Shown piece by piece: positions 29,008-46,775 of a stretch of 64,000 bases of DNA; positions within the stretch are counted from its first letter, which is position 1; every line of letters begins with the position of its first letter. Source of the DNA: an uncultured bacterium (lineage in GTDB: Bacteria; Cyanobacteriota; Vampirovibrionia; Obscuribacterales; Obscuribacteraceae); NCBI GenBank assembly GCA_903835185.1, contig CAILLX010000082.1:1-64000 (forward strand), in the 5' to 3' direction. The notes beneath the pieces were generated by a model. That model saw only the letters and a list, made by a program, of their open reading frames with translations. It was not told the origin of the DNA and ran no database searches. Made by a program: the position numbers and the translations under genes.

Positions 29008-29847
29008 CTATTGTTGTTTTGTCTTGCCAGTGTCGCTCAATCGTGGACGCAAGTTGGTGAGAGAGCCATCTGTGCGGAACCAGGTTGAGCCGAAGATGCC
29101 TTTGTCAACTATTTCGTTATAGACTGCAAATACACACTTGCCTGGTCCTACACCCAGATCTTCAAGCAACGGTGCAGTCCATTTGCGCAAAGTAGCTATG
29201 CGTGTGGCGTTGCCTGTGATGACCCAGATGGGAAAGCCGGTCTTTAAGAAGGCACGAATTTTGGGTTCCCAGTGTTTTGTCTGTCTGAAGTTGCCTGTGT
29301 CTATCTCGAGGAGTACCTTAATCAGGTCGGTGCCTGGATAGCGGAATGAAATAGTAGCGTCAGCCTGCTCTTCAGTGGCTGGAGAGTCTTCTGAAAGCTC
29401 CTTCCAGAATTCACGCCCAGTTATCCATTCCAGATTAGATACTAGTTGACTGGCTTCTGCCTCTGTCATGGCCAGTCTTATGTCAACCAGACGCAAGAAG
29501 TGCTCTTTGTGGTAAGTATGAGGCGGTCCGGTGGGCACAGTCTCCCAGGAGATACCACGGTGATGTTCCAGAGCTTTGGCTCCAGCAACTGTAAGAAAAT
29601 AGATGAGCTCAGGACGCCCCCGACCTTCCATCCTGCCGCTGGAGGCAGAGCCGGTAAAGCCAGCTTGTTGTAGCCTACGGAGGCGCTTGCGTGCCGTCTC
29701 GTAGCTTATGTCTGAAAAGCACAGCCGTGCTAACTGGCTTGAGCTGACAGCTCTATGCAGATACAGTTGGACCAACGCCCAGATGTCCCGCTGCATTAAG
29801 ACAAGGCTTTTTCGTTTAGGCTTTAACTTGACAGGCTTTTCAGTCAT
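29008..29847 (-). CDS. Replication-relaxation family protein
   Basis: A 279-residue protein. Residues 15-95 form a winged helix-turn-helix (RDIWALVQLYLHRAVSSSQL, YETARKRLRRLQQAGF, RGRPELIYFLTVAGAKALE). The second half is a mixed alpha/beta domain (VDIRLAMTEAEA, LLEIDTGNFRQTKHWEPKI, FPIWVITGNATRIATLRKW). This is the layout of the replication-relaxation (Replic_Relax) family, found mostly on plasmids and integrative elements near coupling-protein genes. Its function is thought to be in plasmid replication or gene control. Here it is the last gene of the secretion-like cluster, which hints at a mobile-element origin. Confidence 0.75.
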   Translation of the reverse strand: MTEKPVKLKPKRKSLVLMQRDIWALVQLYLHRAVSSSQLARLCFSDISYETARKRLRRLQQAGFTGSASSGRMEGRGRPELIYFLTVAGAKALEHHRGISWETVPTGPPHTYHKEHFLRLVDIRLAMTEAEASQLVSNLEWITGREFWKELSEDSPATEEQADATISFRYPGTDLIKVLLEIDTGNFRQTKHWEPKIRAFLKTGFPIWVITGNATRIATLRKWTAPLLEDLGVGPGKCVFAVYNEIVDKGIFGSTWFRTDGSLTNLRPRLSDTGKTKQQ

Positions 29848-29915
29848 CTATTGCCAACGGCTCCCGGTGTCTATTTAGTACCCCTTAAATAAGATTGTAG
29901 AACATTCGTTGGGCA

Positions 29916-29936
29916 TTAGCATGACGTAGATGCTAA
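29916..29936. promoter_or_regulatory. Operator-like palindrome upstream of the replication-relaxation gene
   Basis: Perfect inverted repeat TTAGCAT-GACGTAG-ATGCTAA, about 70-90 nt before the start at 29847. The 7-bp arms with a 7-nt spacer suit a dimeric helix-turn-helix repressor. The neighbouring winged-helix protein itself is one candidate binder. Confidence 0.4.
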
Positions 29937-30034
29937 ATCTTCGGCTTTTGTCAGTGCTTGAATTCCAGGAAAGCAAGCTTTTTGCTCTAGCTACCCCACA
30001 AAAGCTCCTGACATGCCCTCTCTCTTAACTGCTT

Positions 30035-30886
30035 CTATTCGCCTGTGGCCGGTTTGACAAGCAGCTCGTAAGGTCTTACTGGATTACGATAACCACCGGC
30101 TGCACCGTCGTAAGTTTCAAGCGGCATGTTGTACAGCAGCCCTGAAGTTGGATCTTTCATACGCTCATAGCCCATAGTTGCTTCTCTGCGTGCTTGCGAG
30201 ATGCGATCTTGACTTAGCCCGCGCAGCTCCCACGATTTTTGATAATCGCCGTAAATATAATCGAACGGGATGTTGCGTGCTGGCATGAGGCGGTCGTTCT
30301 GCGCTACGTGACCCATATTAGTTACAGTGATACTTTTAAGCAGTGCTGGTGCCCAGTATTTATAACGTTCCCAGTTTGCCGGAGCAGTGTGAAAACCTTC
30401 CATAATCCCATCCCACTGGCCCCAGGCGTTGCTCACCTTACTTATGATTTGTCCATGTTGTACCTGACCTCTAAAAATGAAAGTGAGATCGAATCTCTGT
30501 ACGACAAAATATGCTCCGCCTACTGTCGGGATGTTGCGCTCGCTGCGCACACCCAGGCAACGAATGTTGCTGTAGCCTGATCGCGGCAACATCCAGTTGA
30601 TGAACCCCTGCGGGGTCGTCGAACCTCTCGTTCCGCGGAGCAGGACTGAGAAGGCGGTCGTACTGCCGTCAGGTGATTTCATATCGACGCCGTTAGTGCT
30701 ATCTGTAGCGCGCCAGCCTGGTGGCATAGCATAACGATAACATTGCCCTTGATGCCATTGCAGAACAGGACGCGCTGCCACTGCAGCCTCGGGTGCTGTC
30801 GGCCAGGCTGAAGCAGTGCCAAATAAAGAGAGCAGAACCAGGGCGAGGCTGACTGAAGTTAGATACCTTAACTGGCAGTATTTCAT
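30035..30886 (-). CDS. Secreted protein of unknown function in the T4SS-like cluster
   Basis: About 283 residues from the ATG at 30886; the frame continues upstream to 30967, but the first part resembles no signal peptide. From 30886 there is a clear signal peptide (LTSVSLALVLLSLFGTASAW). The mature part has RYAMPPGWRATDSTNGVDM and RGTRGSTTPQGFINWML, and a C-terminal stretch with QDRISQARREATMGYERM. The WRATDS/FINWML region is reminiscent of small lipoprotein-like domains, but I cannot assign a family. Lying directly after the coupling ATPase gene (105-base gap), it may be an exported substrate or an envelope component of that system. Confidence 0.7.
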   Translation of the reverse strand: MKYCQLRYLTSVSLALVLLSLFGTASAWPTAPEAAVAARPVLQWHQGQCYRYAMPPGWRATDSTNGVDMKSPDGSTTAFSVLLRGTRGSTTPQGFINWMLPRSGYSNIRCLGVRSERNIPTVGGAYFVVQRFDLTFIFRGQVQHGQIISKVSNAWGQWDGIMEGFHTAPANWERYKYWAPALLKSITVTNMGHVAQNDRLMPARNIPFDYIYGDYQKSWELRGLSQDRISQARREATMGYERMKDPTSGLLYNMPLETYDGAAGGYRNPVRPYELLVKPATGE

Positions 30887-30990
30887 AATACAGTGTGACT
30901 CCTGTGTTTCCAAAGGGCTTAAGTTCGCGCCTTCAACTAACCTGATTGCTATCCAGTAAACAATCATACAAGTAAGCTCTGACGCCTGCT

Positions 30991-33900
30991 TTAGAACTCT
31001 ACCCCTCCTCCGGAGCGGCGCTCGCGCTGGGTGCCGAGTCCGGGGGGTGGCTCTGTAGGTGCTGGCTGAGCAGCCTGCGGTAGACCAAGGCGAGCCAAAT
31101 CAGGGCTTAAGCTGGTCAACGGTTGACGCTGTCCGGCTCTTGCTGCCTGGTCAGCCTGGTCTTGAGCTGCCGGCAACTGCTGGCTGTGACCAGGAGATAC
31201 AGTCGGTGCCACAGCGGTTGGGAGTGTAGTTGTCACAAATCCCTGAGGCATAGCTGCTCCGAACTGGTCGGACATAGCAGGACGTGGTGCTGACTGTGTA
31301 CCTGCTATCTGAGCAGCTTGCTCGCTTAAGTAAGATGGATGTGGTGGCAGAGTTTGCCCGGTCATGTAGTTGGACGCTGCCGCCGGGGCAGAACTGGCGT
31401 GCTCGGGCGACCCTTCTGCTGGTAGCATCTGTGCTGGCATCTGGTTAGCTGTCTCTAAGGTTGACATGGCAACTTCCACTGCAGCAATCTCTTCGCTAGC
31501 AATCGGTTTGCCACACTCTATGCAGAACCTTCCTTTACCTGCTGCTTGTCCGCAATGTGGGCAGGGGCGTTCAGCTTGCGCTGGCTGCACAGGTGGCATA
31601 GCAGTTGTCGATGTAATTGGAGCGACAGATGCTGCTGGTGCAAGCTGAGTTGCTCCGGTAGCTCCCAGGTGTGAGCTGCCGGCAACACCAGGCGGGAGTT
31701 GGAACTGTCTTTGAGTTGACCCAGGTGCTCCAGGAATGCCACTGCCGTGACCGCCAGCTTCTGGTGGGACCCCAGGCGGTATGTGACGTCCTGAGACGTT
31801 GTGCAAGAGGTGCAGTCGAGCAATCTCTTCGATACCCCTGAAGTCGACCATCAACGGTTTGACTTCAGCAAATTCAGCATCTCCAGCTGGAGAGAGGTAG
31901 ACCAGAGCATGATATTTCTCCATACGCTTAATTGAGTCTGGATCTACACGGGCGACAACTTGCTGAGAGTGAATCCTGTTCCATGTGCTCGGGAAGATAC
32001 CAAAACCTTTGGCTTCGTAGTGGTCGGAGATACCAGGAACTATGATGGCATGCTTGCCGATTTCTTCTGAGAAGAAGCGTGCTGTCGATTCATCAGCATT
32101 GTGCAAGCATATGCGTACTGCCGAGTTGGAGAAGATAGTCTTCAATTCGGAAGCACCTGACGATGTTGGATCCCCTGTGGCGGCTTTGCCTGTAATCTGG
32201 CTTATGTTCTGCAGGATAACTGCAAGACCGCCGTTGGCGCCACGGACAATGGCTGACAATCTGCCGGCTATGTCCATGTTCAATGTTTGATATTCATCAA
32301 AGAATGCGAACAAAGGAAGAATGTTGGCAGTACCATATCTGGTGTGCAACGCTTGTTGCAGTTGATAGACGAAGCAAGAAGCTAACGACTCTGCATCAGG
32401 ACCTAGAGAAGCCGGGGCGCCAAAGATAAGCACTGTAGGCTCATACATGGAACCTCGCATGTCAATGTTCGATTTGTCAGTGACACGCAGCACGTTCGGG
32501 TTCTTGAACATTCTCAACCGCCCGCGAATACCCTGGATGTTCTTATCCCAATCTGTATCCGTACGGATGATTGATGAAAGCATCTGAGTGAGTTCATTAA
32601 GGTCAGCTGCATCAACATTGGCATTGCTCTTCAGCCTGCGTAGAGACTCGACTATGTTGCGGCGATTGTTGACCAGGCGCATGAGCCCGCGAGGGTTGCA
32701 AGGTAGCGGCAAAATTTCGGAAGCAGTTCCATTTTCATCTTCACCGGCAACCATGACTGCGCCCCACTTAAGAAGAGTAGCCAGCCCGGAGATATAACCG
32801 TGATCTCGCTCTGCCCAGTGTTGCTCCTCTGGTGGCAGTGAGTTGACATCCTGCACGATTGATGAGGCAAATGTGATTGGATCCAGATCAAGCGGATTCC
32901 AGTGAATGGACTCTGAATCGAGCGGGTTGAAGTAGAGAGTTTTAAAGCCTGCAGATTGAGCTTCAGGCAAGACTGTATATTTGAAGCCTTCGCGCCTTTC
33001 GTCAAGGTTGGGGTCGTTGGCTTTAGCTTCCAGAGCGATAATAACGCATGGTTTAGCTAGCATAGCCTTTATGATGGCGCGCATCAAAGTAGTTTTACCA
33101 GAACCGGAAGGGGCAACCATGAAGATGTTCTTGTTGGGCAGTCGTCCTAGCGGAATTGTGACCGGCAGGTGTGTGCGGGCCAGGAAGCCAAACGGTATGA
33201 CTATTCCGTCTTGATCTGTCCATGAGGCGTCAGGATTACGTTTCCCCATGCGGCCATGACGCCGCAGGTTAGGTGGGCAGAGGTATGAACGCTCATATTC
33301 ACGTGGTGAAAGCAAGCCGGAAGGTGGAGAGAATGTGCGCAGAGTCTGCCATGGGAACAGACGTTTCTTGTGTGCTGCAGCAATAATGAGAGCTAGAAGG
33401 ACGAGAGTGGGCAACAGAATGGCAATTGAAGTAGCATCCAGGAAGCCGTGTGCTCTGTAGCCAAATGAAGTACTGTTGATATGTCCCTGAACACCTTCCA
33501 TGCGCAGGTTCTTTCCTTGAATGGACTGGTTCATGGTTGGCGGTTGCCCGGCACCTGTGCTGGCCGGCAGTGCTGCATCTGACGGGGCTGCTGAAGTATT
33601 GCCACCATTAAGCAGTTGTGCGCCAGGTTGAATAAGCGGGTTGGGTCCGGACGAAGCTGGTGCTGGAGCTACCTGTGCGGCTCCGCCGGCAACCATATTT
33701 GTGTCTGGAGCTGGAGCAGCCGGTATTATGCCGGCTGGTGCTTGCTGTGATACCGCTCCGCCATCGTTGGCTGCTGCATGCTGATTGGTCGCAGCTGGTT
33801 GAGCCATGACAGAACCTGATCCGGCAGGCGTTGCTGTCAGCTGCGGTGTCTGCATACTTGGCGTAACCAGGAGTTGCCCTTGCTGCATCTGCTGGCGGCG

Positions 33901-33993
33901 CTCATACTCTTTGGCGCTTATCACTTCGCCGGACTCAAGATCCTTGTACCTGGCGATTACACCGCGATCATCAATTTGTGCTCTCCAGCTCAT
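30991..33993 (-). CDS. VirD4/TraG-like coupling ATPase with zinc-ribbon, proline/glutamine-rich tail
   Basis: A 1,000-residue protein. After about 175 low-complexity residues rich in Ala, Pro and Gln there is one membrane helix (IAILLPTLVLLALIIAAA). The ATPase core has Walker A VAPSGSGKTTLMRAI (about residue 295), NPLDSESIHWNPLD, and Walker B PLFAFFDEYQTLN (about residue 563), followed by IVRGANGGLAVILQNISQI. This is the layout of type IV coupling proteins (VirD4/TraG/TraD), which select substrates for secretion. A double-Cys zinc ribbon (CPHCG...CIECG, about residues 810-830) lies in a 270-residue disordered Pro/Gln tail. GAGG precedes the ATG by 8 nt. Confidence 0.85.
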   Translation of the reverse strand: MSWRAQIDDRGVIARYKDLESGEVISAKEYERRQQMQQGQLLVTPSMQTPQLTATPAGSGSVMAQPAATNQHAAANDGGAVSQQAPAGIIPAAPAPDTNMVAGGAAQVAPAPASSGPNPLIQPGAQLLNGGNTSAAPSDAALPASTGAGQPPTMNQSIQGKNLRMEGVQGHINSTSFGYRAHGFLDATSIAILLPTLVLLALIIAAAHKKRLFPWQTLRTFSPPSGLLSPREYERSYLCPPNLRRHGRMGKRNPDASWTDQDGIVIPFGFLARTHLPVTIPLGRLPNKNIFMVAPSGSGKTTLMRAIIKAMLAKPCVIIALEAKANDPNLDERREGFKYTVLPEAQSAGFKTLYFNPLDSESIHWNPLDLDPITFASSIVQDVNSLPPEEQHWAERDHGYISGLATLLKWGAVMVAGEDENGTASEILPLPCNPRGLMRLVNNRRNIVESLRRLKSNANVDAADLNELTQMLSSIIRTDTDWDKNIQGIRGRLRMFKNPNVLRVTDKSNIDMRGSMYEPTVLIFGAPASLGPDAESLASCFVYQLQQALHTRYGTANILPLFAFFDEYQTLNMDIAGRLSAIVRGANGGLAVILQNISQITGKAATGDPTSSGASELKTIFSNSAVRICLHNADESTARFFSEEIGKHAIIVPGISDHYEAKGFGIFPSTWNRIHSQQVVARVDPDSIKRMEKYHALVYLSPAGDAEFAEVKPLMVDFRGIEEIARLHLLHNVSGRHIPPGVPPEAGGHGSGIPGAPGSTQRQFQLPPGVAGSSHLGATGATQLAPAASVAPITSTTAMPPVQPAQAERPCPHCGQAAGKGRFCIECGKPIASEEIAAVEVAMSTLETANQMPAQMLPAEGSPEHASSAPAAASNYMTGQTLPPHPSYLSEQAAQIAGTQSAPRPAMSDQFGAAMPQGFVTTTLPTAVAPTVSPGHSQQLPAAQDQADQAARAGQRQPLTSLSPDLARLGLPQAAQPAPTEPPPGLGTQRERRSGGGVEF

Positions 33994-34131: not shown

Positions 34132-34764
34132 CTACATGCTCTTGCCGCCTTCACTGATACCGGCGATGCGCATCCCTTCCGCAGTCATCTTGACCAGATA
34201 TTCCAGTTTTACTGCTCTGGTGGTTGCTCCTTTGCCCGGTATATTGAGTATTTGGTTGCCGCTTACATAGACAACTACAGATCCGTCAGCAAGTGGCTCG
34301 CCTACGCTGATGCTACTTGCCTGAAACTCGCTTTTCAGTCCAGCTTCATTAAGTTGTTTGGACAGATCAGGTGTCCAGATATTTTTCCGATAAGCCTCTG
34401 CGCAATCGGGTGTCATGGCAAGGATTGCTCGCTCCTGGCTGGTTTGGGCTGAACCAGCACTTAAGTCCCAGGCTAGTGGCAGCCACTGCTCAATGAGTGT
34501 TTTGGCCAGAAGCGGGTCTGTTAGTTTAGCTTGTGCTGAAGTAGGTACCATGGCAGCAGCAGCGCCTGAGGCAGCCGGCGCTGAAGCTGAACGCCTACCG
34601 GATACATCCGGATCACGCATATAAGCGGGTGCCGGTCCTTTGTGTCGTGTCGGCTCTGGTGTCGGCATGAGCAGTACGCAGAAAAAGATGCCGGCCATCA
34701 TTCCTGCCAATCCCACTACGATAAGCGTCAATCGATATCTTTCTCCGGCTTGATAATCGAACAT
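34132..34764 (-). CDS. VirB8/TraE-like inner-membrane protein (candidate)
   Basis: A 210-residue protein. A short cytosolic start is followed by one membrane helix (LTLIVVGLAGMMAGIFFCVL), an Ala/Ser/Pro linker, and a domain from about residue 80 (LTDPLLAKTLIEQWLPLAW, RAILAMTPDCAEAYRKNI, VGEPLADGSVVVYVSGNQIL). N-terminal anchor plus NTF2-like periplasmic domain is the architecture of VirB8, the assembly scaffold of type IV secretion systems. The assignment rests on architecture and its position between the VirB4 and coupling-protein genes. GGAG lies 10 nt before the ATG. Confidence 0.55.
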   Translation of the reverse strand: MFDYQAGERYRLTLIVVGLAGMMAGIFFCVLLMPTPEPTRHKGPAPAYMRDPDVSGRRSASAPAASGAAAAMVPTSAQAKLTDPLLAKTLIEQWLPLAWDLSAGSAQTSQERAILAMTPDCAEAYRKNIWTPDLSKQLNEAGLKSEFQASSISVGEPLADGSVVVYVSGNQILNIPGKGATTRAVKLEYLVKMTAEGMRIAGISEGGKSM

Positions 34765-34895: not shown

Positions 34896-37694
34896 TCATT
34901 GAGCTCCCAGGAGCTCGGGTGTGAATGTGTCAGGTGTTATGCCCTGGGCTAGCAGGTGGCAGGCCCATCTGGCGTCGCCGTTGCAAAGTTCCATCATTTG
35001 TGAGCGTATGGGTTGGTCGTAGTTGGGCTCTGTTGTTGCTACCCAGTACATGAAGCGGGGTACAACCAGCTTTATGACGCCGCGTGACAGCTTGTGATAG
35101 ATAAGAAAAGCTTCTGAATATTCGCGGTTCTTTCTCGTCAAGTGAGCAATAGATGACATCTCAGCTGGTGTCAACCCGCATGATTCTCTTATAAGTTCAA
35201 AATTGCTCGGGTCGTTGCCGAGAATAATCTTAATGGCGCTATTTGTAGCCAGGTTGCGGGCCCTGTCGTCACGCAGCAGGTCGTTCAACTCTTGCGATAT
35301 GCCGATAAAGAGAAGACCTAAGTGGCGGCTTGTACGCGAGGCGTCTTCTACTAGAGTTTTGCCACCTTCATAGCGGAGCAGTCTCCACAGTTCGTCTATA
35401 CAGAAGACGAAGCGGGCTGGTTTGCCTTGTGCCATCTGGTCAGCCTTATGCTGGGCAGCTCGTCTTAAAACGAAGTCAGAGACAAAAAGAGTAACTACTG
35501 CTTCTAAGGTCTTGTCATGGGACAGCTCGGATGTATCAAAAACAATGAGCTGTGCATCCATCGGAATGGAGGTTGGTCCATCAAACAGCTTGCCGAAGAT
35601 TGCTCCTTTGCAGTAAAGGCTGAGGCGGTTAGCCAGATCTTCACAGGTGTCGCCACGCCGCAGTCCCAGGTGTTCGACAGCTTGCTTGCGCAACCAGGCA
35701 ACTAAGTCAGATTCAATCGGATTGCGTCCTTCGATGGCACACTCTTCATAAATCTTCTGTATGCCTTGCATTAAGATTGGCTTCTCATCCTTGTTCAGCG
35801 CTTGCTCGCCACGTTCGCCCAGCATGACAGAGTGGAAGTTCAAGATCTTAATTATGTGTGATTCAGGCGGCTTGGCTGGATCAATTGCTTTGCCGTCTTT
35901 GTCGGCATATGGCAGGTCGTAAAGGTTTATGCAGACAGATCCATCAGGTCCGAGTCGGATGTAGCTGGCATCGTCATAAACTTCAGTGAGCATCTTGTAC
36001 GATCCCGACCTGTCGATGATTACTGTTTTGGCGCCGGCAAGAGTCTTCAGTTGAATTATTTGCTGGGCCACCATTGATTTACCTTCGCCAGGCTGACCGA
36101 AGATGATGCACAAAGCGTTTGGCAGCTTCTCGTCATAAGGGTTGAGGAAGACAGGTTCAAGAGTCTCTTTAGAGAAGCCTAGCCAGTCACCGACACTGGA
36201 GCCGAGTTGAGCATGAACAAACGGGAAGGAGTTGCGCACTGTAGGTGTGCGTACAGCTTTGCCACGGCGGGTGACATCGATGCCCAGACCGGGCAGAGAG
36301 CCTACAAACAGAGCTTTCTGCTCGTGATAACCAATGACGAAACGGGCGCCACGGCATTGTGGAGCAGCAGTGCGCACCATTTCAGTGCCGCGATTCAAAT
36401 CGTCAAGCGTATCTGCACTTAAAGTGAAATAGACAGCATAGTTAAAGACTTCTATGTTTGTTGTATAAAGCTCGGAGCCGACTGACGCAGCTTCCTGTGC
36501 CTTTTCAGCTTCTTCCTGATTTGCAGCTGAGCGTTGTCCGAGGATGCCTTGATATGTGTTGGCAGTAGCTTGTGCTTGCTTGCGTTGTAAATTCTTGCGG
36601 AAGATGTCTTTGTCGAGCTTGTGGGCAAAAATGTTCAAGCGCCATTCACAGTTCAAACGTAGCAGTGGTGAAAGCCAGAGTGGTCCTGTGCGCTCGGGCA
36701 GTCGGTTCATATAGAGAGTTCTGCTGTATTTTGCTTCCTGCTCGCCTGTCTCAGGATTAATCTCGCTGAGATCTGAGATTGTCAGATAGTCAGGGGCACT
36801 GAAATCATAACGTGAATCAGTCAGCTGCTGGCGGATTGTGGCTGGTTCGCAATCCGGGAATATGCGACGGATGGCTGCCGGAGTTGGACTTTGTACTGGA
36901 CGTAGCGGTTTCGGCAAACTGCTTTGACCTCTGCTAGCTAAAACAGGATTGACTTCACGATAAAGCATCTGGAAGTATTCAATTGCTCCTATTGCTCTGC
37001 CTGTCATGCCGCAGTTAGCCAGTTGAGAGATGTGTCCCTGGGCTCTCTGCACCAGGGTGCTTATATTTTTCTGGTGATGACCTACTGTCTGCCGGGCTGC
37101 CTGATTTGTGAAGGCGTCCTGGATCCGTCCAAGAGTACAGTCGAGCCAGCTTTGCTTGGCCGGTTTCTCGTTTGGTGGACGGTAGCAGAATGTGACATAA
37201 AACTTGAGTTCAGGTATGAAATTTTTTGCCAGGAGGAAAGCTTTGTCACTTTCAACAGAACGGGCGACATACTTAAGGAAGTCGTCGTCGACAACTTCTA
37301 CAGGGTGACGGGCAAAATACTCTCTATTGCCTACGTTGTGACAGACAACAGTAAGCTGTACTGAAGTATCAATTGAATTGAGAAAGCCGGTGAAATGATT
37401 CATGAGGGAGACAAGTCTAATCTCGTCAAAACCGCTTACATGAACTCCGTCCACTTCAAAGCAACATCTGTAGCTGCCATCTTTGAGGACAATTATTCCG
37501 AGTCCTGTAGTGTCATCTTGAAAGAGGTCCCAGATTGGTAGCAGCCCGGCAGCTGACCCGTGCGGTCTTGGCACTGCTCCGGAAGGCAGCTTTGCTATGG
37601 CGATACTGTCAGCAGTTTCTGCTTTAGAACGGTTGAAAAGCCCGGCAAGACCGCTGTTATCTCTCATATACTGCCTGGAAATTGAAGCTACCAT
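34896..37694 (-). CDS. VirB4-family type IV secretion ATPase
   Basis: About 932 residues from the ATG at 37694, which begins 4 bases after the preceding stop; a TTG seven codons earlier is less likely. The N-terminal 450 residues match the VirB4/TraC core domain. The C-terminal ATPase has Walker A IFGQPGEGKSMVAQQI (about residue 533), TVIIDRSGSYKMLTEV, Walker B FVFCIDELWRLL (about residue 763), and RTSRHLGLLFIGISQELNDL. VirB4 energises pilus and substrate movement and is the most conserved secretion-system component. It has the full length of the family, so the system does not look decayed here. Confidence 0.92.
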   Translation of the reverse strand: MVASISRQYMRDNSGLAGLFNRSKAETADSIAIAKLPSGAVPRPHGSAAGLLPIWDLFQDDTTGLGIIVLKDGSYRCCFEVDGVHVSGFDEIRLVSLMNHFTGFLNSIDTSVQLTVVCHNVGNREYFARHPVEVVDDDFLKYVARSVESDKAFLLAKNFIPELKFYVTFCYRPPNEKPAKQSWLDCTLGRIQDAFTNQAARQTVGHHQKNISTLVQRAQGHISQLANCGMTGRAIGAIEYFQMLYREVNPVLASRGQSSLPKPLRPVQSPTPAAIRRIFPDCEPATIRQQLTDSRYDFSAPDYLTISDLSEINPETGEQEAKYSRTLYMNRLPERTGPLWLSPLLRLNCEWRLNIFAHKLDKDIFRKNLQRKQAQATANTYQGILGQRSAANQEEAEKAQEAASVGSELYTTNIEVFNYAVYFTLSADTLDDLNRGTEMVRTAAPQCRGARFVIGYHEQKALFVGSLPGLGIDVTRRGKAVRTPTVRNSFPFVHAQLGSSVGDWLGFSKETLEPVFLNPYDEKLPNALCIIFGQPGEGKSMVAQQIIQLKTLAGAKTVIIDRSGSYKMLTEVYDDASYIRLGPDGSVCINLYDLPYADKDGKAIDPAKPPESHIIKILNFHSVMLGERGEQALNKDEKPILMQGIQKIYEECAIEGRNPIESDLVAWLRKQAVEHLGLRRGDTCEDLANRLSLYCKGAIFGKLFDGPTSIPMDAQLIVFDTSELSHDKTLEAVVTLFVSDFVLRRAAQHKADQMAQGKPARFVFCIDELWRLLRYEGGKTLVEDASRTSRHLGLLFIGISQELNDLLRDDRARNLATNSAIKIILGNDPSNFELIRESCGLTPAEMSSIAHLTRKNREYSEAFLIYHKLSRGVIKLVVPRFMYWVATTEPNYDQPIRSQMMELCNGDARWACHLLAQGITPDTFTPELLGAQ

Positions 37695-37698
37695 TATC

Positions 37699-38043: not shown

Positions 38044-38736
38044 TTACTCCTGGGGTAAAACTGACTCTTCTGGCTTGCCTTTGACACAGAAGAGCAGCTC
38101 CACTAAATGTTCAGGTAAAGCTGCTGGCGCCTGGTCGCCTGATGTAGCCTGTACTTTCTGGCGTTCCACCAGTTCGGGCGGCAACATTGAAGATGGACCA
38201 ACCTGATTGAAATGATTGACAGCTCCTTGAAAGTCGCCTGACTGCCGGCACAACTCGCCAAGCAGATACTGGTAGTAGTCGCGATTCCCCTGCCAGTTTT
38301 TGTCTCGCAAAGCGCGTTCCAGTTCACCACCAGCAAGCTCCAGCCAGCGCTCGTGTGGTTGTCCGGCCTCACGCGCGCACCAGCAACCGTTGAGCGCCAG
38401 TAAAGCTAAATCCAGGGCGTGAGCACCATTTTTCCGGCCGGTTAAAACAGCATGGGCAAACTTCTTGGGCTGGTCGGCAATAGGTGTCGGTGGGACAAAA
38501 ACTGACTGGAGCATATGCGGTCTGAAAGCAGTGTACCACCAGGTATAGCTGCAAGCCGGGCACATAGCCACCAGTGCTGCTCTGATTGCAGGATCTGGTA
38601 GCACTCTGTGCAAGTCGGCTTCAATGGCTGTCTGCGGTGTAATAGCCGGCATAGTAAGCAGTGTGGGCGTAGCAAACATTGAGTTGCATTGTGGGCAAAC
38701 TACTGTGGTTTGGCGGATAGTGAACTCTGTTTGCAT
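38044..38736 (-). CDS. DUF2225-like zinc-ribbon/TPR protein
   Basis: A 230-residue soluble protein. The first Cys pair VCPQCNSMF (residues 13-21) and a second MCPACSYTWWYTAF (around 58-71) make a zinc-binding domain, and the rest is helical with a TPR-like unit (YYQYLLGELCRQSGDFQGAVNHFNQVG region). This resembles DUF2225 proteins, which have no known function. It is unusual inside a secretion cluster. It ends 6 bases before the VirB3-like ATG, so it is co-translated with the core genes. Its start has a weak ribosome site. Confidence 0.65.
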   Translation of the reverse strand: MQTEFTIRQTTVVCPQCNSMFATPTLLTMPAITPQTAIEADLHRVLPDPAIRAALVAMCPACSYTWWYTAFRPHMLQSVFVPPTPIADQPKKFAHAVLTGRKNGAHALDLALLALNGCWCAREAGQPHERWLELAGGELERALRDKNWQGNRDYYQYLLGELCRQSGDFQGAVNHFNQVGPSSMLPPELVERQKVQATSGDQAPAALPEHLVELLFCVKGKPEESVLPQE

Positions 38737-38929: not shown

Positions 38930-41900
38930 TTACGGGTTGGAGCCACGGTTTTGTGCCTGGCGTCCAGAGTTGGACAGTCTGGCGCGCAGATCGTTGATGA
39001 TTGCAGAAGATAATCTGTGTCCAGGCAATGGCGAATAGCCAGGATGCTCGAGAAGTATCTGCACCGTATTGTATGTTGGTTCAATAGGCGGCTCGTTGCC
39101 GTAATTGTATTCACATAGATCTGAGGCAGCTTCAATTTGTGGGCGCGCAATCTTGCTCGGGCTGTGGCCGCTGCTGACCATTCTCTGTACAGTCTGAACA
39201 TAGTTCTGGTTGACATTACCGTTGCCGAGGACACGCGCTGCTACAGCAACTGTGCTCAGCATGTGCCTTTGTCCTGGGTCTTGATAATAATGGTTGATGA
39301 GACCAGCTACATTGGGGTCTTGCATCTGCTGGTCAGTTATGCCGGCATTGTAACAGTCGATCATCATGTATGCAGCATTGTGGAGCGGTGCAGTATTGGC
39401 AGCGCCAGCTACTCCTGCTAAGTCTCCCTGACTGACAGGCACTGTTGATGCTCCGCCGTCACTGCGAACCTCAACTTGTACGTTCTGCCTGGTGGTGCTG
39501 TCGGCGCCGCCACCGCCACCTACTGCTCTAGTATTGGAATATACCTGCGGATTACTGGTGGTTCCGCCTGGCATCTGCATAGTGATATTTTGCACAGTGG
39601 CTGAGCTGTCCCCGCTGCCGCCACCCGGGCGTACTTCTACATCTATATTTTGTTCGACTACACTTTGTCCGGCTACGCTGCCGGAAGGAATATTGACATT
39701 GTCTGGAGCAACTGGCTGCTGCGTATTGTCTGGTTGTACCTGAGCTTGTACGTTGACTGTGCGCCGCCTTACGCCGCCTCTTCCTGATGACATAAGAGAA
39801 CGGAGATTGAGATAAGCAGTATTTGCGTCGCGACAGCGTGGATCTTGACTCAGAAGAGCTACTGTCTGGACCATCGGTACAGAGACATCGGTTCCACCTG
39901 ACTCAACCTGGACGGCAAAAATAGCTTCAACTTCAGATTTGCCCAGTCCGGTGGCAATCCTGCCTACAGCAGCGTCGAGCACAAGTGGATCGGCATCAGG
40001 ATATTGAGCATCAGCTATGTCGGTGGCGTATTTAGCCACTGCTGGCATGGCTGCTTTGCGTTGCCACTGCGGCATTCTCATTACATAGGCGTTGCCTGAA
40101 GCTGCTCTGTTGGCCTCAGTCACTGGATTGCCTGAAGCATAAAGTGCATCAGATGCTGGAGTATAATTCGGGTTCCATGGAGAAGACGGGCTGGAAGCGT
40201 CTGTCATCCAGTGGACAGCCCGGGTATCATCGTTGGTGCCCCACTCGCCGAAGCGATTTTTGAGATATTGAGTATAGTTATTTCCTTGCCCGCCGCTAAT
40301 ATAAGCTTCAGAGCCGACAGCTGCTTGTGCAAATAGCGCCCGATTAAAGCTTTGTTTGGCCTGAGCTGTCTCTTTGAATGAGCGACCGTTGTAAGCCATG
40401 AAGCCTGCGGCTGCTCGCTGGAACAGTCCTTTTGGTGAGTCTGCACCAGATTCAATAGCTGATTCGCGAGCAGCATCAAAAGCTAAAGGATCGTCGTGGA
40501 ATAGCTCTGCATAGCCTCCTGCCATGACAAGATGTGCTACTTCTTCAGGAGAAGCTCCCTGGCGGGCACGCATATGGCGGAGGTTGCCTTTGCCGTCGCC
40601 TATTAATCTGTTTGTTCCGTCGGAAGAATAACCAATTGAATTGTTTTCGAATTTACGAGCTCTCTCAGCAGCATTTTTTATCGGCACAAACTTATAACCG
40701 GAGTGATCAAATTTGGTAGCTGGGTTCATGACTCCGCTGTCAGCTTCACCATGCTGAAATCTGCCTTCCAACATTTCGGCAAAACGGTCAGCTGGTACAG
40801 CTTCACCTGTGCCTGCCACTAAGGTGGGATCAGCCATACCTCGTTGTACTCCGGCAGGAGAGATGCTGCGTGCCATACCAGTAGCCAGACCTAGAGCTGC
40901 AGCTGAAAATGTTGCGCTATTTGTCCCTGGTGTAGCTGCTCCAACAGCTGGCTGAGCTACTGGCAAGCCCTGTGCAGGTACTGCTGCTGCCTGTTGATCT
41001 GCCTGCGCCATGTTCGGCGACGCCTGTCCTGGTGTGTTGAGCCCTGGAGCTGCCTGTCCGGGTAGTGCCTGTCCTGGTGGTCGGTTGCCTGGCTGTCCTG
41101 GTGTATTTAGTCCTGGAGTTGCTCCTCTTTGTGTTGCTTGAGCACCTGTGCCGGCTTGCCCAGATAGCGGTTGTCCAGTGGCCGCATTTCGTATATTGGT
41201 GAGAAGTTCAGGATCTGCTGCACCTGTCGGCAGTCCGTTCATAGCCTGATTTTGTGTCTGCTGCATGCCGCGGGCAGCAAACTGTTGAGTGAGCCCGTAG
41301 TTGAATAGTTGTGCTGTTTTGTTGCCGGCTCCGTCAGCCAGTCTCTTGATACCGGCCATAGCAAAGCCGGTGACCAGTCCTGTACTTATAAAGTCTGACA
41401 TCGGGCTGATCTGGGCACGCGAAAGGAAGCTGGGCACCTGAATCATAAGCTGGAGTATTCCTACAGCCAGCATAATTTTACCCCAGGGATTAAAGTCTGA
41501 GTTGAGAAGGATAACCATTATTTTGAGCAGTCCTACCCAGACGAATGTCCAGAGGCTTACTTCTACAAATGATTTGACAAAACCTGCAGTAACAGACTCA
41601 GTGTCAGGAGTGGCAAAAAAGACTAGGAATATTGGAGCAAACATATACATAGCAACCAGAAGTGCAGTCTGGATAGCTTTGAGCACCAGGAAGTAGATGA
41701 GCTCAGCAATTAGCACTACTCCCAGAACGCTCCAGATGATAAGCCCGGCAAAAGATACTGCGTCGCCTACTGTACCGAGTACCAGCCCGCCGGCTCCCTC
41801 GGCGGCTGCGCCGCCGCCAGCAGCAAGAATCACTGGTGCAAAAGCATTAGCCAGGGCAGCGGCACCTGCAACCAACCCTGCTTTGATGGCTGCTTGCATT

Positions 41901-42802
41901 GCTACGTCCAACATTATTACCTGGTCGGCTGAATTAAAGTAGATTGCTTTAATCATCTCATTTGCAATCTGAATTTCAAAAGCATAAATAGTTGGCCAGG
42001 CCAGAAGCAGACCGGCTGTAAAGATAAGCCTCCCCACTGCTCCCATGAGGTTGCCGCCGCCTCTCCAGGCAGCTTCGGCCCAGTACTTCCAGATGCAAAG
42101 AATAAAAAGCAAAAGAAGTAGATCGATAGCGATACCATACATTACATCAGCTGCCTGGCGGATATAAGGTGAGATGTCGTCGACTACACCACCGCCTCCA
42201 TTGAGACCGTTCAGTCCGTTGACCGGAATGTTTGGGTTAAGGACAAAGATGCGCAGATACTTTGTGAGGAAAGCTGCAGTGTCTGCCACCCAGCCATCGA
42301 TAAACTCAGAGAGCCATTTGCCCAGGAGCTGCCCGATATTGGCAAAAAGGTTGCTTACTATATCGTCCGACCAGACCTGGTGCACTCCCCAGAAAATATC
42401 ATTGTATTGACCGCCTATCGATCCTTTTAATTTGTCAGTGACATCTGTTACCACTGAGTCTTTATTTTGTTCAGCTGCCTGAATGACCAAAGTAGATGGA
42501 AGCGTTTTGTAATGCTGTGAGGTCTGATCGGTTGACTGTGCCTGCTTGGACAGAGAGGGATCATGGTTGCCGTCACCGACGTGGATTGGCAGGGTGTTAT
42601 TAAGATCTGGCGGCTCAGTTTGAGCCAGGGCATTGATTGCGATTAATAAGTAGGGTGCCAGTAAAAGAAGGAAAACCACGGCTGCCTTAAAAAAACTGGC
42701 AGTTCGTGGCAGGTGGCTTGGCCGGGTCCGTTCGGATATTCTGGCTTCTCTGGCAGAGAGCCGCCTCCTTGAATCGCTTAGATAGGTGGTACCGGCAAAC
42801 AC
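38930..42802 (-). CDS. VirB6/TrbL-like polytopic membrane protein with long repetitive tail
   Basis: A 1,290-residue protein starting at GTG (weak ribosome site). An N-terminal hydrophobic segment (FKAAVVFLLLLAPYLLIAIN) ends in ALAQT like a signal peptide. Residues 200-480 contain about seven membrane segments (IDLLLLLFILCIWKYW, VGRLIFTAGLLLAW, LIIWSVLGVVLIAELIYFLV, LLVAMYMFAPIFLVFFATP, WTFVWVGLLKIMVILL), the VirB6/TrbL/TraG-N layout that forms the inner-membrane channel. The following 800 residues are soluble: a Gly/Pro/Gln region with repeated PGLNTPGQ units, a globular part around 680-1000, and a tail with repeated QNVxVEVRxxGG units. VirB6-family proteins with very long tails are known. 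The tail's job is unknown. Confidence 0.75.
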   Translation of the reverse strand: MFAGTTYLSDSRRRLSAREARISERTRPSHLPRTASFFKAAVVFLLLLAPYLLIAINALAQTEPPDLNNTLPIHVGDGNHDPSLSKQAQSTDQTSQHYKTLPSTLVIQAAEQNKDSVVTDVTDKLKGSIGGQYNDIFWGVHQVWSDDIVSNLFANIGQLLGKWLSEFIDGWVADTAAFLTKYLRIFVLNPNIPVNGLNGLNGGGGVVDDISPYIRQAADVMYGIAIDLLLLLFILCIWKYWAEAAWRGGGNLMGAVGRLIFTAGLLLAWPTIYAFEIQIANEMIKAIYFNSADQVIMLDVAMQAAIKAGLVAGAAALANAFAPVILAAGGGAAAEGAGGLVLGTVGDAVSFAGLIIWSVLGVVLIAELIYFLVLKAIQTALLVAMYMFAPIFLVFFATPDTESVTAGFVKSFVEVSLWTFVWVGLLKIMVILLNSDFNPWGKIMLAVGILQLMIQVPSFLSRAQISPMSDFISTGLVTGFAMAGIKRLADGAGNKTAQLFNYGLTQQFAARGMQQTQNQAMNGLPTGAADPELLTNIRNAATGQPLSGQAGTGAQATQRGATPGLNTPGQPGNRPPGQALPGQAAPGLNTPGQASPNMAQADQQAAAVPAQGLPVAQPAVGAATPGTNSATFSAAALGLATGMARSISPAGVQRGMADPTLVAGTGEAVPADRFAEMLEGRFQHGEADSGVMNPATKFDHSGYKFVPIKNAAERARKFENNSIGYSSDGTNRLIGDGKGNLRHMRARQGASPEEVAHLVMAGGYAELFHDDPLAFDAARESAIESGADSPKGLFQRAAAGFMAYNGRSFKETAQAKQSFNRALFAQAAVGSEAYISGGQGNNYTQYLKNRFGEWGTNDDTRAVHWMTDASSPSSPWNPNYTPASDALYASGNPVTEANRAASGNAYVMRMPQWQRKAAMPAVAKYATDIADAQYPDADPLVLDAAVGRIATGLGKSEVEAIFAVQVESGGTDVSVPMVQTVALLSQDPRCRDANTAYLNLRSLMSSGRGGVRRRTVNVQAQVQPDNTQQPVAPDNVNIPSGSVAGQSVVEQNIDVEVRPGGGSGDSSATVQNITMQMPGGTTSNPQVYSNTRAVGGGGGADSTTRQNVQVEVRSDGGASTVPVSQGDLAGVAGAANTAPLHNAAYMMIDCYNAGITDQQMQDPNVAGLINHYYQDPGQRHMLSTVAVAARVLGNGNVNQNYVQTVQRMVSSGHSPSKIARPQIEAASDLCEYNYGNEPPIEPTYNTVQILLEHPGYSPLPGHRLSSAIINDLRARLSNSGRQAQNRGSNP

Positions 42803-42974: not shown

Positions 42975-43406
42975 TTAGAGACCGCCGCCCAGTCCTCCGA
43001 AGTTGTTGATTGCGAACGTGCCGATTAAGTGAACCGCAGTTGGTCCACCAAAACCGATTCCCAGTCCTTTGGCTACGTTCATGGCGGCTTCACCACCATC
43101 ACGTTGACCGAAGGCAATCTTCATTCCTGCCATTGAAGACGGGATTGTCGAAAGCGCAGTTACGACGCGGGAAATGTCACGAGCGGTGTCATAGCCGAAG
43201 TCAGCCATCTGACCAACTTCGTTTGATTGCCCGTAGCGGGGGTCTACAGGAGCTCCCACTAGTCCTTGGGCATGTGCTACTTGATCGTAAACACCTATGG
43301 CCATGAGCACTAGTTGTGGGGCCAGGAGAAATCCCACGCGACAGGCAACCTTGAAGGCGCTCGAAGATACTATCTTCTTGCTGATTAATTTGATTCTGGT
43401 TACCAT
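42975..43406 (-). CDS. VirB2-like pilin candidate
   Basis: A 143-residue protein with the strongest ribosome site of the cluster (GGAGG, 6 nt before ATG). A long basic signal peptide (VGFLLAPQLVLMAIGVYDQV) ends at AHA-QG near residue 47. The mature part of about 95 residues has a small-residue amphipathic region (SRVVTALSTIPSSMAGMKIA), a short polar loop (GQRDGGEA), and a Gly-rich hydrophobic end (GLGIGFGGPTAVHLIGTFAI). VirB2/TrbC pilins share this plan: long signal peptide, two hydrophobic helices and a short loop. Position just before VirB6 supports it. No sequence identity to a named pilin is claimed. Confidence 0.5.
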   Translation of the reverse strand: MVTRIKLISKKIVSSSAFKVACRVGFLLAPQLVLMAIGVYDQVAHAQGLVGAPVDPRYGQSNEVGQMADFGYDTARDISRVVTALSTIPSSMAGMKIAFGQRDGGEAAMNVAKGLGIGFGGPTAVHLIGTFAINNFGGLGGGL

Positions 43407-43478: not shown

Positions 43479-44168
43479 CTACTGTTGGTTCAAGACCTTG
43501 CCAAGCACGGTGGCTTGAGCTGTTGAGCCGTCTCCCGCGTATGAGGCGGGTAAGAATGGACCAGGAACGTATCCACCACCGTAGCTGTCGATCTGCTTTT
43601 TGGCGTCAGCGACAACACCTTTTGATTCCTTTGCGCGAGCAAGTACGGCGTGAACATCCTTTGATGCATGGTTGCTGCGATGAGCCACCACTGGTTTGCT
43701 GAAGTGTGCTGCTTTGGCTGGGGCAGCTTTGGCAGCTACTGGAGCAGCAACAGATTCAGGCTTGTTGGCTACTACAGGGGCGGCTGCTTTGCCAAAGGCG
43801 GCATTGAATTTAGGTATGCCAATCTCAGGGGTGGCTTGTGTAAAGCTTGTGGTAGCAGCGGTGACTTGCTGCGCGGCCGGCTTGGTCAGCATTTTGGGCG
43901 ACAGTCCAAGAAAAGAAGGACCTTGCGGGACAGCACCATTTTTAACTTGATGTGGAGCCTCAGGGACCGAAGCTGGAACATGTGACATTTCGACACGATA
44001 AATGTTAGGAGCATAAGTGAAGCGGGCGTTCCCGGAATCTGCAGCGAAAGCTGCCTGTGTGGTGGCGGCTGTCATTATTGCTGCTACAACAGCGAGCTGA
44101 AGGCTTGCGATATAAGTGCTCTGACGGCTGGCAGCCGTTGCATTGCTATTGATAATCAGTGTCTTCAT
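43479..44168 (-). CDS. Exported alanine/lysine/proline-rich protein
   Basis: About 229 residues from the ATG at 44168, which has AAGG close by and begins 4 bases after the preceding stop; the frame extends to 44201 without a ribosome site. A signal peptide (LQLAVVAAIMTAATTQAAFA) is followed by a low-complexity mature region with many Ala, Val, Pro and Lys (KPVVAHRSNHASKDVHAVLA), ending in YGGGYVPGPFLPASYAGDG. No family recognised. It probably lies in the periplasm or at the surface, as part of the secretion-like system. Confidence 0.65.
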   Translation of the reverse strand: MKTLIINSNATAASRQSTYIASLQLAVVAAIMTAATTQAAFAADSGNARFTYAPNIYRVEMSHVPASVPEAPHQVKNGAVPQGPSFLGLSPKMLTKPAAQQVTAATTSFTQATPEIGIPKFNAAFGKAAAPVVANKPESVAAPVAAKAAPAKAAHFSKPVVAHRSNHASKDVHAVLARAKESKGVVADAKKQIDSYGGGYVPGPFLPASYAGDGSTAQATVLGKVLNQQ

Positions 44169-44172
44169 CGCC

Positions 44173-44883
44173 TTAAAACCTGAATCCGTTACGTACACCA
44201 AAACCTGTTGCGCCCAGACCGAACATACCGAGTCCTATTGGGTTTGTATAAAGAGATCTTGAAACAAGCGATCCTAGGAAAAGACCGGTGCCCAATCCAG
44301 CTACTGCACTTACTGCGTTAGACAAGCCGCCGCGGCGGATGTCCTGCTTCTGTGGCGCAGCTTTAACGCTGCCTGAAAGTGTTTGCGAGCCGGCAGAGCC
44401 TGGTTGTACCCAGTTTGATTGTCCGGCTTGGGCTGTCCCTGGTGAGGCGTTAGCTATCTGTGTGCCGAAAGAGCCGGGTTGGTTGTTGAAACCCTGTCCA
44501 CCTTGGGAAGCTCCAAACTGGTTGGAAGAGTTAAGTGGAGTAGTTTGTGACTGTCCTAAAAGTTGATCGTATGTGGACTTGCGAGCATCCTGTGCAGTTT
44601 GCATGCCGGACATAGGATCAGGTTGCAATTCTGGTGTGGACATCTGTGCTGCTCTTGATTGAGCCTGGCTCTGCACTAGTTTATTAGCTGCAGCAGGATC
44701 AAGCGGAACAACTTCAGGTGGCAATAAAGAGTCTTGCTCTGCTGCCAGATTTGCAGATGTGCCAGCATCAAAACTTTGAGCAGAGGCAGCCAGATCTGCC
44801 CCATTGCCAACTAACATAATAGTGGCAGCGAGAAGCGCTATCTTTTGCGCTTTCTTGCAGGTAGTGGTGACTTGGGTGTTCAT
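44173..44883 (-). CDS. Exported Gln/Ser-rich protein with glycine-rich hydrophobic C-terminus
   Basis: A 236-residue protein. A signal peptide (AQKIALLAATIMLVGNGADL, cut near ASA-QS) is followed by a Gln/Ser/Asn-rich unstructured middle and a final 45 residues of Gly-rich hydrophobic sequence (VAGLGTGLFLGSLVSRSLY, GLGMFGLGATGFGVRNGF). Such an end may insert in a membrane or pack in a pore; this is inference. The stop is 4 bases before the next gene's ATG, so translation is coupled. Element B lies 68-106 nt upstream of its start. Confidence 0.65.
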   Translation of the reverse strand: MNTQVTTTCKKAQKIALLAATIMLVGNGADLAASAQSFDAGTSANLAAEQDSLLPPEVVPLDPAAANKLVQSQAQSRAAQMSTPELQPDPMSGMQTAQDARKSTYDQLLGQSQTTPLNSSNQFGASQGGQGFNNQPGSFGTQIANASPGTAQAGQSNWVQPGSAGSQTLSGSVKAAPQKQDIRRGGLSNAVSAVAGLGTGLFLGSLVSRSLYTNPIGLGMFGLGATGFGVRNGFRF

Positions 44884-44950
44884 TGATTTGGTTGGCTGCT
44901 CTGCCTGGGGTGGTTGATGGTCGAATGTTAGTTGATGCCGTGCTCGGAGG

Positions 44951-44989
44951 GAAGCGGGGGAATTCCCACTGGAGTGGGAGAATCCCCCC
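44951..44989. promoter_or_regulatory. G-run/C-run palindromic element B
   Basis: GAAGCGGGGGAATTCCCAC (44951-44969), 4 nt, then GTGGGAGAATCCCCCC (44974-44989). The two halves form a near-perfect hairpin, and the left half is itself a GGGAATTCCC palindrome. It lies 68-106 nt upstream of the start at 44883, and matches element A in sequence, order and gap length. Confidence 0.5.
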
Positions 44990-44998
44990 TAGTCCAAA

Positions 44999-45970
44999 TT
45001 AGAAGTTAGTGATGACTGCAGTAGGATTGAGGCGTTGCCCTGTCTTCTGCGGTGCTACATTGGCTGGATTGAACTGGCGATAAGGGAAGCCGAAGTCAGT
45101 AGTTTTGCTGCTATACATCGGTATTCTTCTCCAGCCCTGACCAAATTCATCCGACTGGTGAGCACCTAGTCCTGAAATCGGGGTGTTTCTCATATCGCTG
45201 TTGCCGTAATCCTGGAGAGTTGAACCGTAAGAGATAGGTGTGTTGCCAGCACCTGTACTGAAGCGGGTGCCTCCACCTAAATCAATAGAGTTGTTGCGCA
45301 GTCCGTCGCCTGTCGGAACACCAAAAGGAACGCCCCAGCCGGAATATGGTCCCAATCTTGTTACCTGGTCCTGAGTACCGTCACCGATTCCTGGTATAAG
45401 CGAGCTGTTGCGACCACGCAACTCCCACTGGTGACTTTCCTGACCGCCCCGGCGTACAGTAGGTATGGTGGTGTTGTAGCCACCTTTGCCAGGGATGCCG
45501 CCGCCTGCTGCTACTGGTGCAATGGCTGCTGGATTGAAAGATGGTGAATATGGTGCATTCTGGAGTGGACCAGGATCAGCTCCTGGAGTAGATGGTGAAT
45601 GTGGGACAAAAGGTGTCAGCAATGGGCCGAGTACACCTGGTGGCATCTCTACAGGCGGTCCAAATGGTAGCGGTATGCCCGATGAGTTAAGATCAATCTG
45701 GTTAGCTGGCACTGCCGGTACCCAGGGTAGAAGAGTGGAAGGTCCACCCATACCTGGTGTGACCGGGACAGGTGTCGGTCCGGTTCCAGGAATCTCAGGC
45801 GGACCGCTTGAAGCTGGAATGAAAGGTGCCGAGCTTGGAGCTCCCGGTATAAGAGGATCGCGCAAAGTATTGGATGACTGCGCATTTGCTGCTTGATATG
45901 TGCTCAGGCTGAGGGCGCCGGCACATATGGCTAAGGCGATTGTCATTCTGGTGGTTAATCTGGTTGACAT
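44999..45970 (-). CDS. Exported proline/glycine-rich protein, paralogue of the next gene upstream
   Basis: A 323-residue protein with a signal peptide (MTIALAICAGALSLSTYQAA, cut near ANA-QS). The mature part begins NTLRDPLIPGAPSSAP and is rich in Pro and Gly, with TPVPVTPGMGG and HSPSTPGADPGPL. The end has TTDFGFPYRQF and is richer in Asn and Arg. The same landmarks in the same order occur in the protein encoded at 45999-46775, so the two arose by duplication. No family recognised. In a diderm host these could make the outer part that canonical VirB7/9/10 make elsewhere; that is speculation. Confidence 0.68.
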   Translation of the reverse strand: MSTRLTTRMTIALAICAGALSLSTYQAANAQSSNTLRDPLIPGAPSSAPFIPASSGPPEIPGTGPTPVPVTPGMGGPSTLLPWVPAVPANQIDLNSSGIPLPFGPPVEMPPGVLGPLLTPFVPHSPSTPGADPGPLQNAPYSPSFNPAAIAPVAAGGGIPGKGGYNTTIPTVRRGGQESHQWELRGRNSSLIPGIGDGTQDQVTRLGPYSGWGVPFGVPTGDGLRNNSIDLGGGTRFSTGAGNTPISYGSTLQDYGNSDMRNTPISGLGAHQSDEFGQGWRRIPMYSSKTTDFGFPYRQFNPANVAPQKTGQRLNPTAVITNF

Positions 45971-45998
45971 GATGTACTTGGCCTCCTCGAAGCCTGGG

Positions 45999-46775
45999 TT
46001 AATATGGAGCTATGGTCATGACTGAATGCTGGTTGCCGTGGAACAGTACGCGATTGCCGTACAGGTCTGTGGTCTGCTGTGCTCCTGGCCGGTTGGGCTG
46101 GTTGGGACCACCGTTGGCTCCTAGCGGACGTGGTCCATCTTCGTTGGGAGCAGGTTGTACTTTTGCTACTTTTTTAAGCGCCTGTCCAAAATCAGTTGTC
46201 TGGGCTCCGCGGGCGCGGTGGAGTCCAAAGTCTTTGCTAGTTTGTCCGCCCCACTTGTGTTGCGGTGCATTGCCTGTAAGGTTGCTGCCGGCTGGTGGAA
46301 CTGGAACTAAAAGTGCTGATGGACGATAACCGCTAGTGGTGCCAGGGAGTACACCGGGGTCGACTCCAGGGGTAGATGGTGGTGCGGTCAAGTAGGGAGA
46401 TATAGCTTCGTTAAGCTGGCTTTGATCTAGCGGCGATGTGGCCGGCACAGGCACAACTGTCCCGGCTGGCGAGCGCAACGCTGATGCTGGCAGGACAGGA
46501 TTTCCCAACTGCCCTGGTGTTACAGGCAGTGGTGTGCTGCCAGAGCCTGGTGTCGGTGGCAAGTCCGGTGTCACTGCTTGTTGTGGTGCTGTATAGAGCG
46601 CCCCTGGAATCAGCGGGCTGCGCAGAGTAGTTGCCTCCTGAGCCTGTGCAGGTGAGTAGGAGGTCAAGATACCCAGAGCTACTGCAATATATAACGTAGC
46701 AGCAGCCGAGGTTCTCTCTGGCTTTCTTGCTGCCGGAGTGCCGGCACTGGTGGCTACGTTTCTTTCTGTGATCAT
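45999..46775 (-). CDS. Exported proline/glycine-rich protein (first gene of the T4SS-like cluster)
   Basis: A 258-residue protein with an N-terminal hydrophobic signal (AATLYIAVALGILTSYSPAQ, cut near AQA-QE). The mature part begins TTLRSPLIPGALYTAP, and then has STPLPVTPGQLG, PPSTPGVDPGVLPG and two TTDFG/TTDLYG sites. It shares the order TLR-PLIPGA, TP-PVTPG, STPG-DPG and TTDFG with its paralogue 28 bases downstream. Cysteine is absent from both. Unknown function. It appears to be the first gene of a long minus-strand operon. Confidence 0.66.
   Translation of the reverse strand: MITERNVATSAGTPAARKPERTSAAATLYIAVALGILTSYSPAQAQEATTLRSPLIPGALYTAPQQAVTPDLPPTPGSGSTPLPVTPGQLGNPVLPASALRSPAGTVVPVPATSPLDQSQLNEAISPYLTAPPSTPGVDPGVLPGTTSGYRPSALLVPVPPAGSNLTGNAPQHKWGGQTSKDFGLHRARGAQTTDFGQALKKVAKVQPAPNEDGPRPLGANGGPNQPNRPGAQQTTDLYGNRVLFHGNQHSVMTIAPY

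Follow-up and report, generated by a model that had tools for sequence, protein, structure and literature searches.

Introduction

Conjugation machines usually belong to mobile elements such as plasmids. The Ced/Ted systems of hyperthermophilic archaea are chromosomal, domesticated and order-wide, and contain homologues of VirB4, VirB6 and VirB2 (PMC9905601). The core type IV secretion system (T4SS) of the monoderm Patescibacteria is likewise chromosomal and lineage-wide, with VirB2-like pilins, monoderm-like VirB3, VirB4 (of the MPF_FATA type) and VirB6, and no outer-membrane core (PMC12102498). Conjugation modules of the pAD1/pAM373 type are plasmid-borne and display a PF13814 relaxase near a VirD4-like gene. 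One published listing (PMC5357655) equates PF13814 with the MOB_C relaxase superfamily. Relaxases of this type are relatives of PD-(D/E)XK restriction endonucleases, and pAD1 TraX has a winged helix at its N-terminus (PMC12857230); PF13814 also appears in papers describing phage genomes. Vampirovibrio chlorellavorus, a member of the class to which the present host belongs, possesses an MPF_T system, two of whose three operons are plasmid-borne and include relaxases (PMC4451040).

The window analysed here is a stretch of 64 kb from an uncultured member of the Obscuribacterales, whose T4SS-like cluster occupies positions 29008-46775. The comparisons reported below reveal that a whole bacterial order, consisting of non-photosynthetic relatives of Cyanobacteria, carries two paralogous inherited T4SS loci, one of which includes both a homologue of relaxases and a defined DNA element. 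A literature search covering few subscription journals found no paper on conjugation in Obscuribacterales.

Results

Organisation of the cluster

The cluster predicted in an earlier note on this DNA exists as thirteen ORFs on one strand in the ORF list of the window (Table 1), among which VirB4 and VirD4 are recognised at the family level. It constitutes, as proposed there, a reduced T4SS with VirB3, VirB4, VirB6, VirB8 and VirD4 candidates and no outer-membrane core in cis. A search with VirB4 retrieved 42 related loci, mostly labelled Obscuribacterales or Melainabacteria, and the gene order is conserved in them. Loci L010, L032 and L035 of the cluster come from contigs bearing the labels Actinobacteria, Proteobacteria and Chloroflexi, which are probably mislabelled genomes. 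The exported ORF located between the relaxase candidate and VirD4, for which the related loci contain no homologue, is probably not part of the machine.

Table 1 Features of the T4SS cluster in the 64-kb window.
Feature	Position	Strand	Evidence
MOB_C-type relaxase candidate, winged helix and PD-(D/E)xK-like nuclease residues	29008..29847	-	PF13814 Replic_Relax E 2.7e-11 (Pfam)
Conserved cis element CTACAAT-CTT-ATTTAAGGGGTA, 5' of the relaxase gene	29879..29900	-	Pattern and alignment
Exported ORF, family unknown, seen in the window alone	30035..30967	-	0/42 related loci
VirD4/T4CP	30991..33993	-	PF02534 E 8.7e-20; TraG-D_C E 3.9e-8
VirB8, one TM and NTF2-like periplasmic domain (predicted)	34132..34764	-	AF2 model and Foldseek
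VirB4 ATPase, copy A	34896..37715	-	Pfam/NCBIfam
VirB3/PrgI-like inner-membrane protein	37699..38037	-	Weak PrgI matches; adjoins VirB4
DUF2225-like zinc-ribbon/TPR protein, common to both T4SS loci	38044..38736	-	PF09986
Extended VirB6-like polytopic protein, long C-terminal tail	38930..42802	-	Topology; position kept in 35 loci
VirB2-like pilin candidate	42975..43406	-	Synteny, alignment, topology
Exported protein E1	43479..44201	-	Kept in 16 loci
Exported protein E2, C-terminal Gly-rich hydrophobic segment	44173..44883	-	Kept in 15 loci
Exported Pro-rich protein E3	44999..45970	-	56-70% identity in most loci covering E3
Exported Pro-rich protein E4, paralogue of E3	45999..46775	-	Synteny and profile comparison

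Components of the channel

VirD4 displays a single transmembrane segment (residues 189-207), intact Walker motifs, a proline-rich N-terminus and a C-terminal zinc-ribbon-like tail, and its identity to the related loci that cover it ranges from 44 to 76%. VirB4 is full length, matches P-loop_TraG (E 6.6e-18) and TIGR00929 (E 8e-40) and also retains intact Walker motifs; its true start is probably residue 8, where the homologues begin. The AlphaFold (AF2) model of VirB8, derived from 34 orthologues, has a pLDDT of 83.6 and was matched by Foldseek to DotI, IcmL, TraM, CagV, TraE, VirB8 and PrgL with TM values up to 0.77, while NTF2-like relatives such as ARC6 were matched too. The predicted fold thus supports the VirB8 assignment. 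In the VirB6 candidate, eight hydrophobic segments accompany a signal-like one, and the tail is ~830 residues long; this topology, together with the conserved position, argues for the proposed identity. Similarly, the VirB3 candidate is supported by its location beside VirB4 and by weak PrgI matches (best E 0.0014), obtained with 3 of 30 orthologues, its counterpart in the second locus described below being matched at E 1.8e-4.

Few proteins of the cluster are as conserved as the pilin candidate, which shows 80-91% identity across nearly all orthologues and whose low-confidence model (pLDDT 64) adopts a helical hairpin. This helix-loop-helix topology is the part of the VirB2 proposal that stands; the profile searches provided no family match. 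Profiles of the VirB2 and VirB3 candidates had no matches among PDB sequences. In some genomes (loci L009, L016 and L022) the pilin candidate is present in two or three tandem copies. The zinc-ribbon/TPR protein scores 20.3 bits against PF09986, slightly below the cutoff, and its paralogue in the second locus scores 45.9 bits; the HMM comparison between the DUF2225-like proteins of the two loci gives E 3.6e-50.

The PF13814 protein and its upstream element

The earlier note considered the cluster relaxase-less, a description that is not supported, as the product of its last gene is assigned with good confidence to the PF13814/MOB_C family. The gene is single copy in 48 of the 53 Obscuribacterales genomes, with one more identified by synteny (L029), and it is conserved and linked to the VirB4 cluster where both are on one contig. 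Residues D163, E181, D183 and K196 (window numbering) are invariant in 23 orthologues, and nuclease catalysis by this protein is inferred from its sequence. CloDF13 MobC was unsuitable as a reference, its record containing no annotated PF13814-family relaxase and seemingly broken ORFs, and pAM373, which is typed MOB_C, was used instead. The replication-relaxation gene of pAM373 matches PF13814 (E 5e-6), sits near a TraM-recognition (VirD4-like) gene and encodes a protein with a like AD...E-I-[DE]...K pattern, read by eye. A direct hhalign comparison between the window profile and the pAM373 protein was not significant (probability 1%, E 0.05, N-terminal part only), and the link to the pAM373 relaxase candidate runs through PF13814 and the hand-read motif. 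Two plasmid members of PF13814 from Paenibacillaceae are devoid of the acidic residues.

VirD4 is immediately followed by the PF13814 gene in many genomes of the order. The two are parted by unrelated metabolic genes in several genera, where an ABC-transporter gene still adjoins the PF13814 gene. The intervening genes were considered as variable cargo or effectors, an explanation rejected because they look metabolic and are genus-specific.

A GGGGTA element is positioned near the start of the PF13814 gene in all 21 loci examined. The pattern CTANAAT-N(1-8)-ATTNNNGGGGTA has 23 hits in the 53 genomes, one per genome and 21 of them at the PF13814 gene, compared with 2 hits for the reversed control pattern across the same genomes. 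The TACAAT/TAGAAT part of the element is similar to a -10 box, and a dyad-like arrangement is seen in ATTTA..GGGGTA..TAAAT; the element may be a promoter with an operator, or a nick site. A stem-loop oriT at 29820-29960 was rejected, as folding is no better than that of shuffled sequences (z 0.14); a direct-repeat array did not turn up either.

Distribution and inheritance

The distribution of the cluster was established by comparing 240 genomes of the class, 53 from Obscuribacterales and 187 others, at a VirB4 threshold of E 1e-20; the tallies of the two VirB4 copies, A and B, were counted by hand from the search table. The comparisons are mostly with metagenome-assembled genomes, and the genome containing the window is 85% complete in 243 contigs. 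VirB4-A is found in 49 of the 53 Obscuribacterales genomes and in none of the 187 others. Full-length copies are 70-84% identical to that of the window across the order, and VirB4-A is nearly always single copy. Pairwise identity among 26 genomes averages 0.77 in VirB4-A and 0.88 in RpoB, with agreement between the two identity matrices (Mantel r 0.73, p 0.0005). No close VirB4 was detected among 72,556 plasmid records, the best rows having ~22-25% identity, and no tRNA is present in the window.

VirB4, VirD4 and a relaxase, the latter at the family level (PF13814), are all present in the cluster, as in an integrative conjugative element (ICE). The patchy distribution expected of an ICE is not seen; the locus is near-universal, single copy and follows RpoB. 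The flanking genes scanned contain no integrase, in agreement with the earlier note, and an ordinary ICE is thus discounted. The cluster is not a mobile element; it is a permanent, vertically inherited chromosomal locus. A decaying ICE remnant would account for the missing integrase and for the absence of an outer-membrane core in cis, and is nonetheless barely credible in view of the strong constraint, the intact frames, the near-universal presence in the order and the agreement with RpoB, on which grounds it was rejected. Conservation across the order under strong constraint also makes unlikely the suggestion that the machine is incomplete.

A second full-length RpoB-like protein, containing all Rpb2 domains, is present in almost every genome of the order. 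It was located at G000:C182 (L207:2437-6264) and G077:C1 (L208:3280-7320), is 43% identical to the main RpoB and 72-78% identical between two genera. Its gene is preceded by a TPR gene and has no rpoC-like genes after it.

A second VirB4 locus and relaxase modules elsewhere in the genome

The genome also contains a second, paralogous locus, whose VirB4-B is 30-34% identical to VirB4-A and is present in 51 of the 53 Obscuribacterales genomes. In the host of the window it corresponds to locus L047 (G000:C57). The usual order, observed in 16 regions from 15 other genomes, is VirB6-like genes, DUF2225, VirB3, VirB4-B and two small membrane proteins, followed in most of these regions by riboflavin genes; VirD4 is absent. 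In a small, long-branched tree, VirB4-A and VirB4-B group as sisters (SH-aLRT 90), apart from the few FATA-like references included. A phylum-wide search with the TraC model provided a match in the window's own genome only.

Relaxases were also identified outside the two loci, with four further matches of the MobA/VirD2 type (PF03432) in the same genome and relaxase matches in 40 of the 53 genomes. The modules comprise an RHH-like protein, a relaxase and a DnaJ-like protein, and the two inspected are without mating genes. One, on contig C64 (L140), encodes a T4CP of its own in addition to the relaxase and a DnaJ protein, with no VirB genes on the stretch read, while the other is on a short contig (C174, L139). 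No VirB4 other than the chromosomal copies A and B was found in this genome and, therefore, the relaxase modules may use the A or B channels.

Crossing the outer membrane

The diderm nature of the host, suggested in the earlier note, is confirmed by an Omp85 match in the genome (E 1.3e-36). The reported absence of VirB9 extends to the entire genome, and that of VirB10 holds inside the cluster. VirB9 is missing in 52 of the 53 genomes, the exception being G030, which has ordinary T4SS genes. One contig of this genome (G030:C1) carries two sets of such genes, including VirB9, VirB10 and a relaxase. Exported proteins with the VirB10 C-terminal domain (PF03743) are encoded outside the cluster in 51 of the 53 genomes, in several copies per genome. 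In some, a hydrophobic hairpin rich in Gly may represent an antenna-like structure, and one type is encoded ~15-20 kb upstream of VirB4-B. It is possible that the exported proteins of the cluster replace the outer-membrane core, as the earlier note suggested; VirB10-domain proteins acting in trans provide an alternative path.

Discussion

The explanation favoured here, to which about even confidence is attached, is that the cluster is a conjugation-type T4SS that Obscuribacterales have domesticated and inherit vertically on the chromosome, and that it most likely moves DNA. The MOB_C protein would bind the upstream element and nick the DNA nearby, and VirD4 would pass the relaxosome to an inner-membrane channel formed by VirB3, VirB4, VirB6 and VirB8. 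The outer membrane would be crossed by way of the VirB2-like pilin, together with either the exported proteins or VirB10-domain proteins encoded elsewhere. Such a machine would move host DNA, in the form of chromosomal segments, between related cells, and would also move relaxase-bearing mobilizable modules that have no mating channel of their own. Against this explanation, the pilin is identified by topology only, and in several genera the MOB_C gene lies away from VirD4 but beside the ABC gene. The functional link between the MOB_C protein and VirD4 is less certain because metabolic genes separate their genes in these genera.

The main rival, although unlikely, is a protein-delivery T4SS, in which VirD4 would recruit effectors for delivery by channel and pilus into prey or competing cells. 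The pilin candidate and the exported surface proteins E1-E4 are conserved along with the machine, Stenotrophomonas possesses a T4SS that kills bacteria (PMC11253643), and the components of the Patescibacteria core T4SS, mostly found without a relaxase, are essential for epibiotic growth (PMC12102498). In contrast, no effector candidate or immunity-like gene was recognised beside the cluster, the genes between VirD4 and the relaxase gene differ by genus and look metabolic, and a nuclease-type relaxase homologue would be superfluous for protein delivery. The earlier note invoked predation by Vampirovibrio, an analogy that fails because the system in question is MPF_T with plasmid-borne operons; the VirB4 described here is absent from all 187 genomes of the class that were compared from outside the order.

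The separation of the MOB_C-like gene from VirD4 in some genera could also indicate that only the T4SS core is domesticated and that this gene is a neighbour without functional connection, such as one encoding an autoregulated DNA-binding nuclease. The core would then mainly provide mobilizable elements with a helper channel, or act in other export. The relaxase gene remains with the ABC gene when VirD4 is distant and has its own promoter-like element, while the frequent relaxase matches and the modules inspected without mating genes are consistent with a helper channel. This possibility is rather improbable, as PF13814 is found near VirD4-like genes on plasmids too and immediately follows VirD4 in many of the order's genomes. 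Uptake of DNA from sister cells, as performed by archaeal Ced/Ted, would fit a chromosomal, order-wide locus with a VirB2/4/6-type core, but no relaxase is known for Ced/Ted (PMC9905601). Export fits better than import because VirD4 and a relaxase homologue are present, and import is considered similarly improbable.

If the conjugation-type explanation is correct, these bacteria may use the machine to exchange their own DNA, and the locus raises the question of how such a machine crosses the outer membrane without VirB9. Vampirovibrio chlorellavorus shares with the present host its class and the possession of a T4SS, but its MPF_T VirB4 system is not this cluster, and the VirB9 and VirB10 of MPF_T are missing here from the genome and the cluster, respectively. 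The pAD1/pAM373-type modules display the same proximity of a PF13814 relaxase to a VirD4-like gene, while the plasmid search revealed no close relative of the VirB4 reported here. The Patescibacteria core T4SS resembles the cluster in its chromosomal location, lineage-wide distribution, VirB2-like pilins, monoderm-like VirB3/4/6 and lack of an outer-membrane core. It differs in that the VirB4 described here falls, on long branches, outside the few references compared, the host is Omp85-positive and a relaxase homologue is present. Ced/Ted shares with the cluster a chromosomal, domesticated and order-wide character and the VirB4, VirB6 and VirB2 homologues, VirB6 and VirB2 being assigned here by topology and position. 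Unlike Ced/Ted, the present system belongs to a diderm bacterium, includes VirD4, VirB3, VirB8 and a relaxase homologue, and is known from its genes. It is tentatively suggested that the cluster is a bacterial counterpart of Ced/Ted, an order-wide inherited conjugation machine equipped with a MOB_C relaxase of its own and with a nick or operator site on the chromosome, which would serve routine exchange of chromosomal DNA in a diderm lacking VirB9 and with no VirB10 in the cluster.
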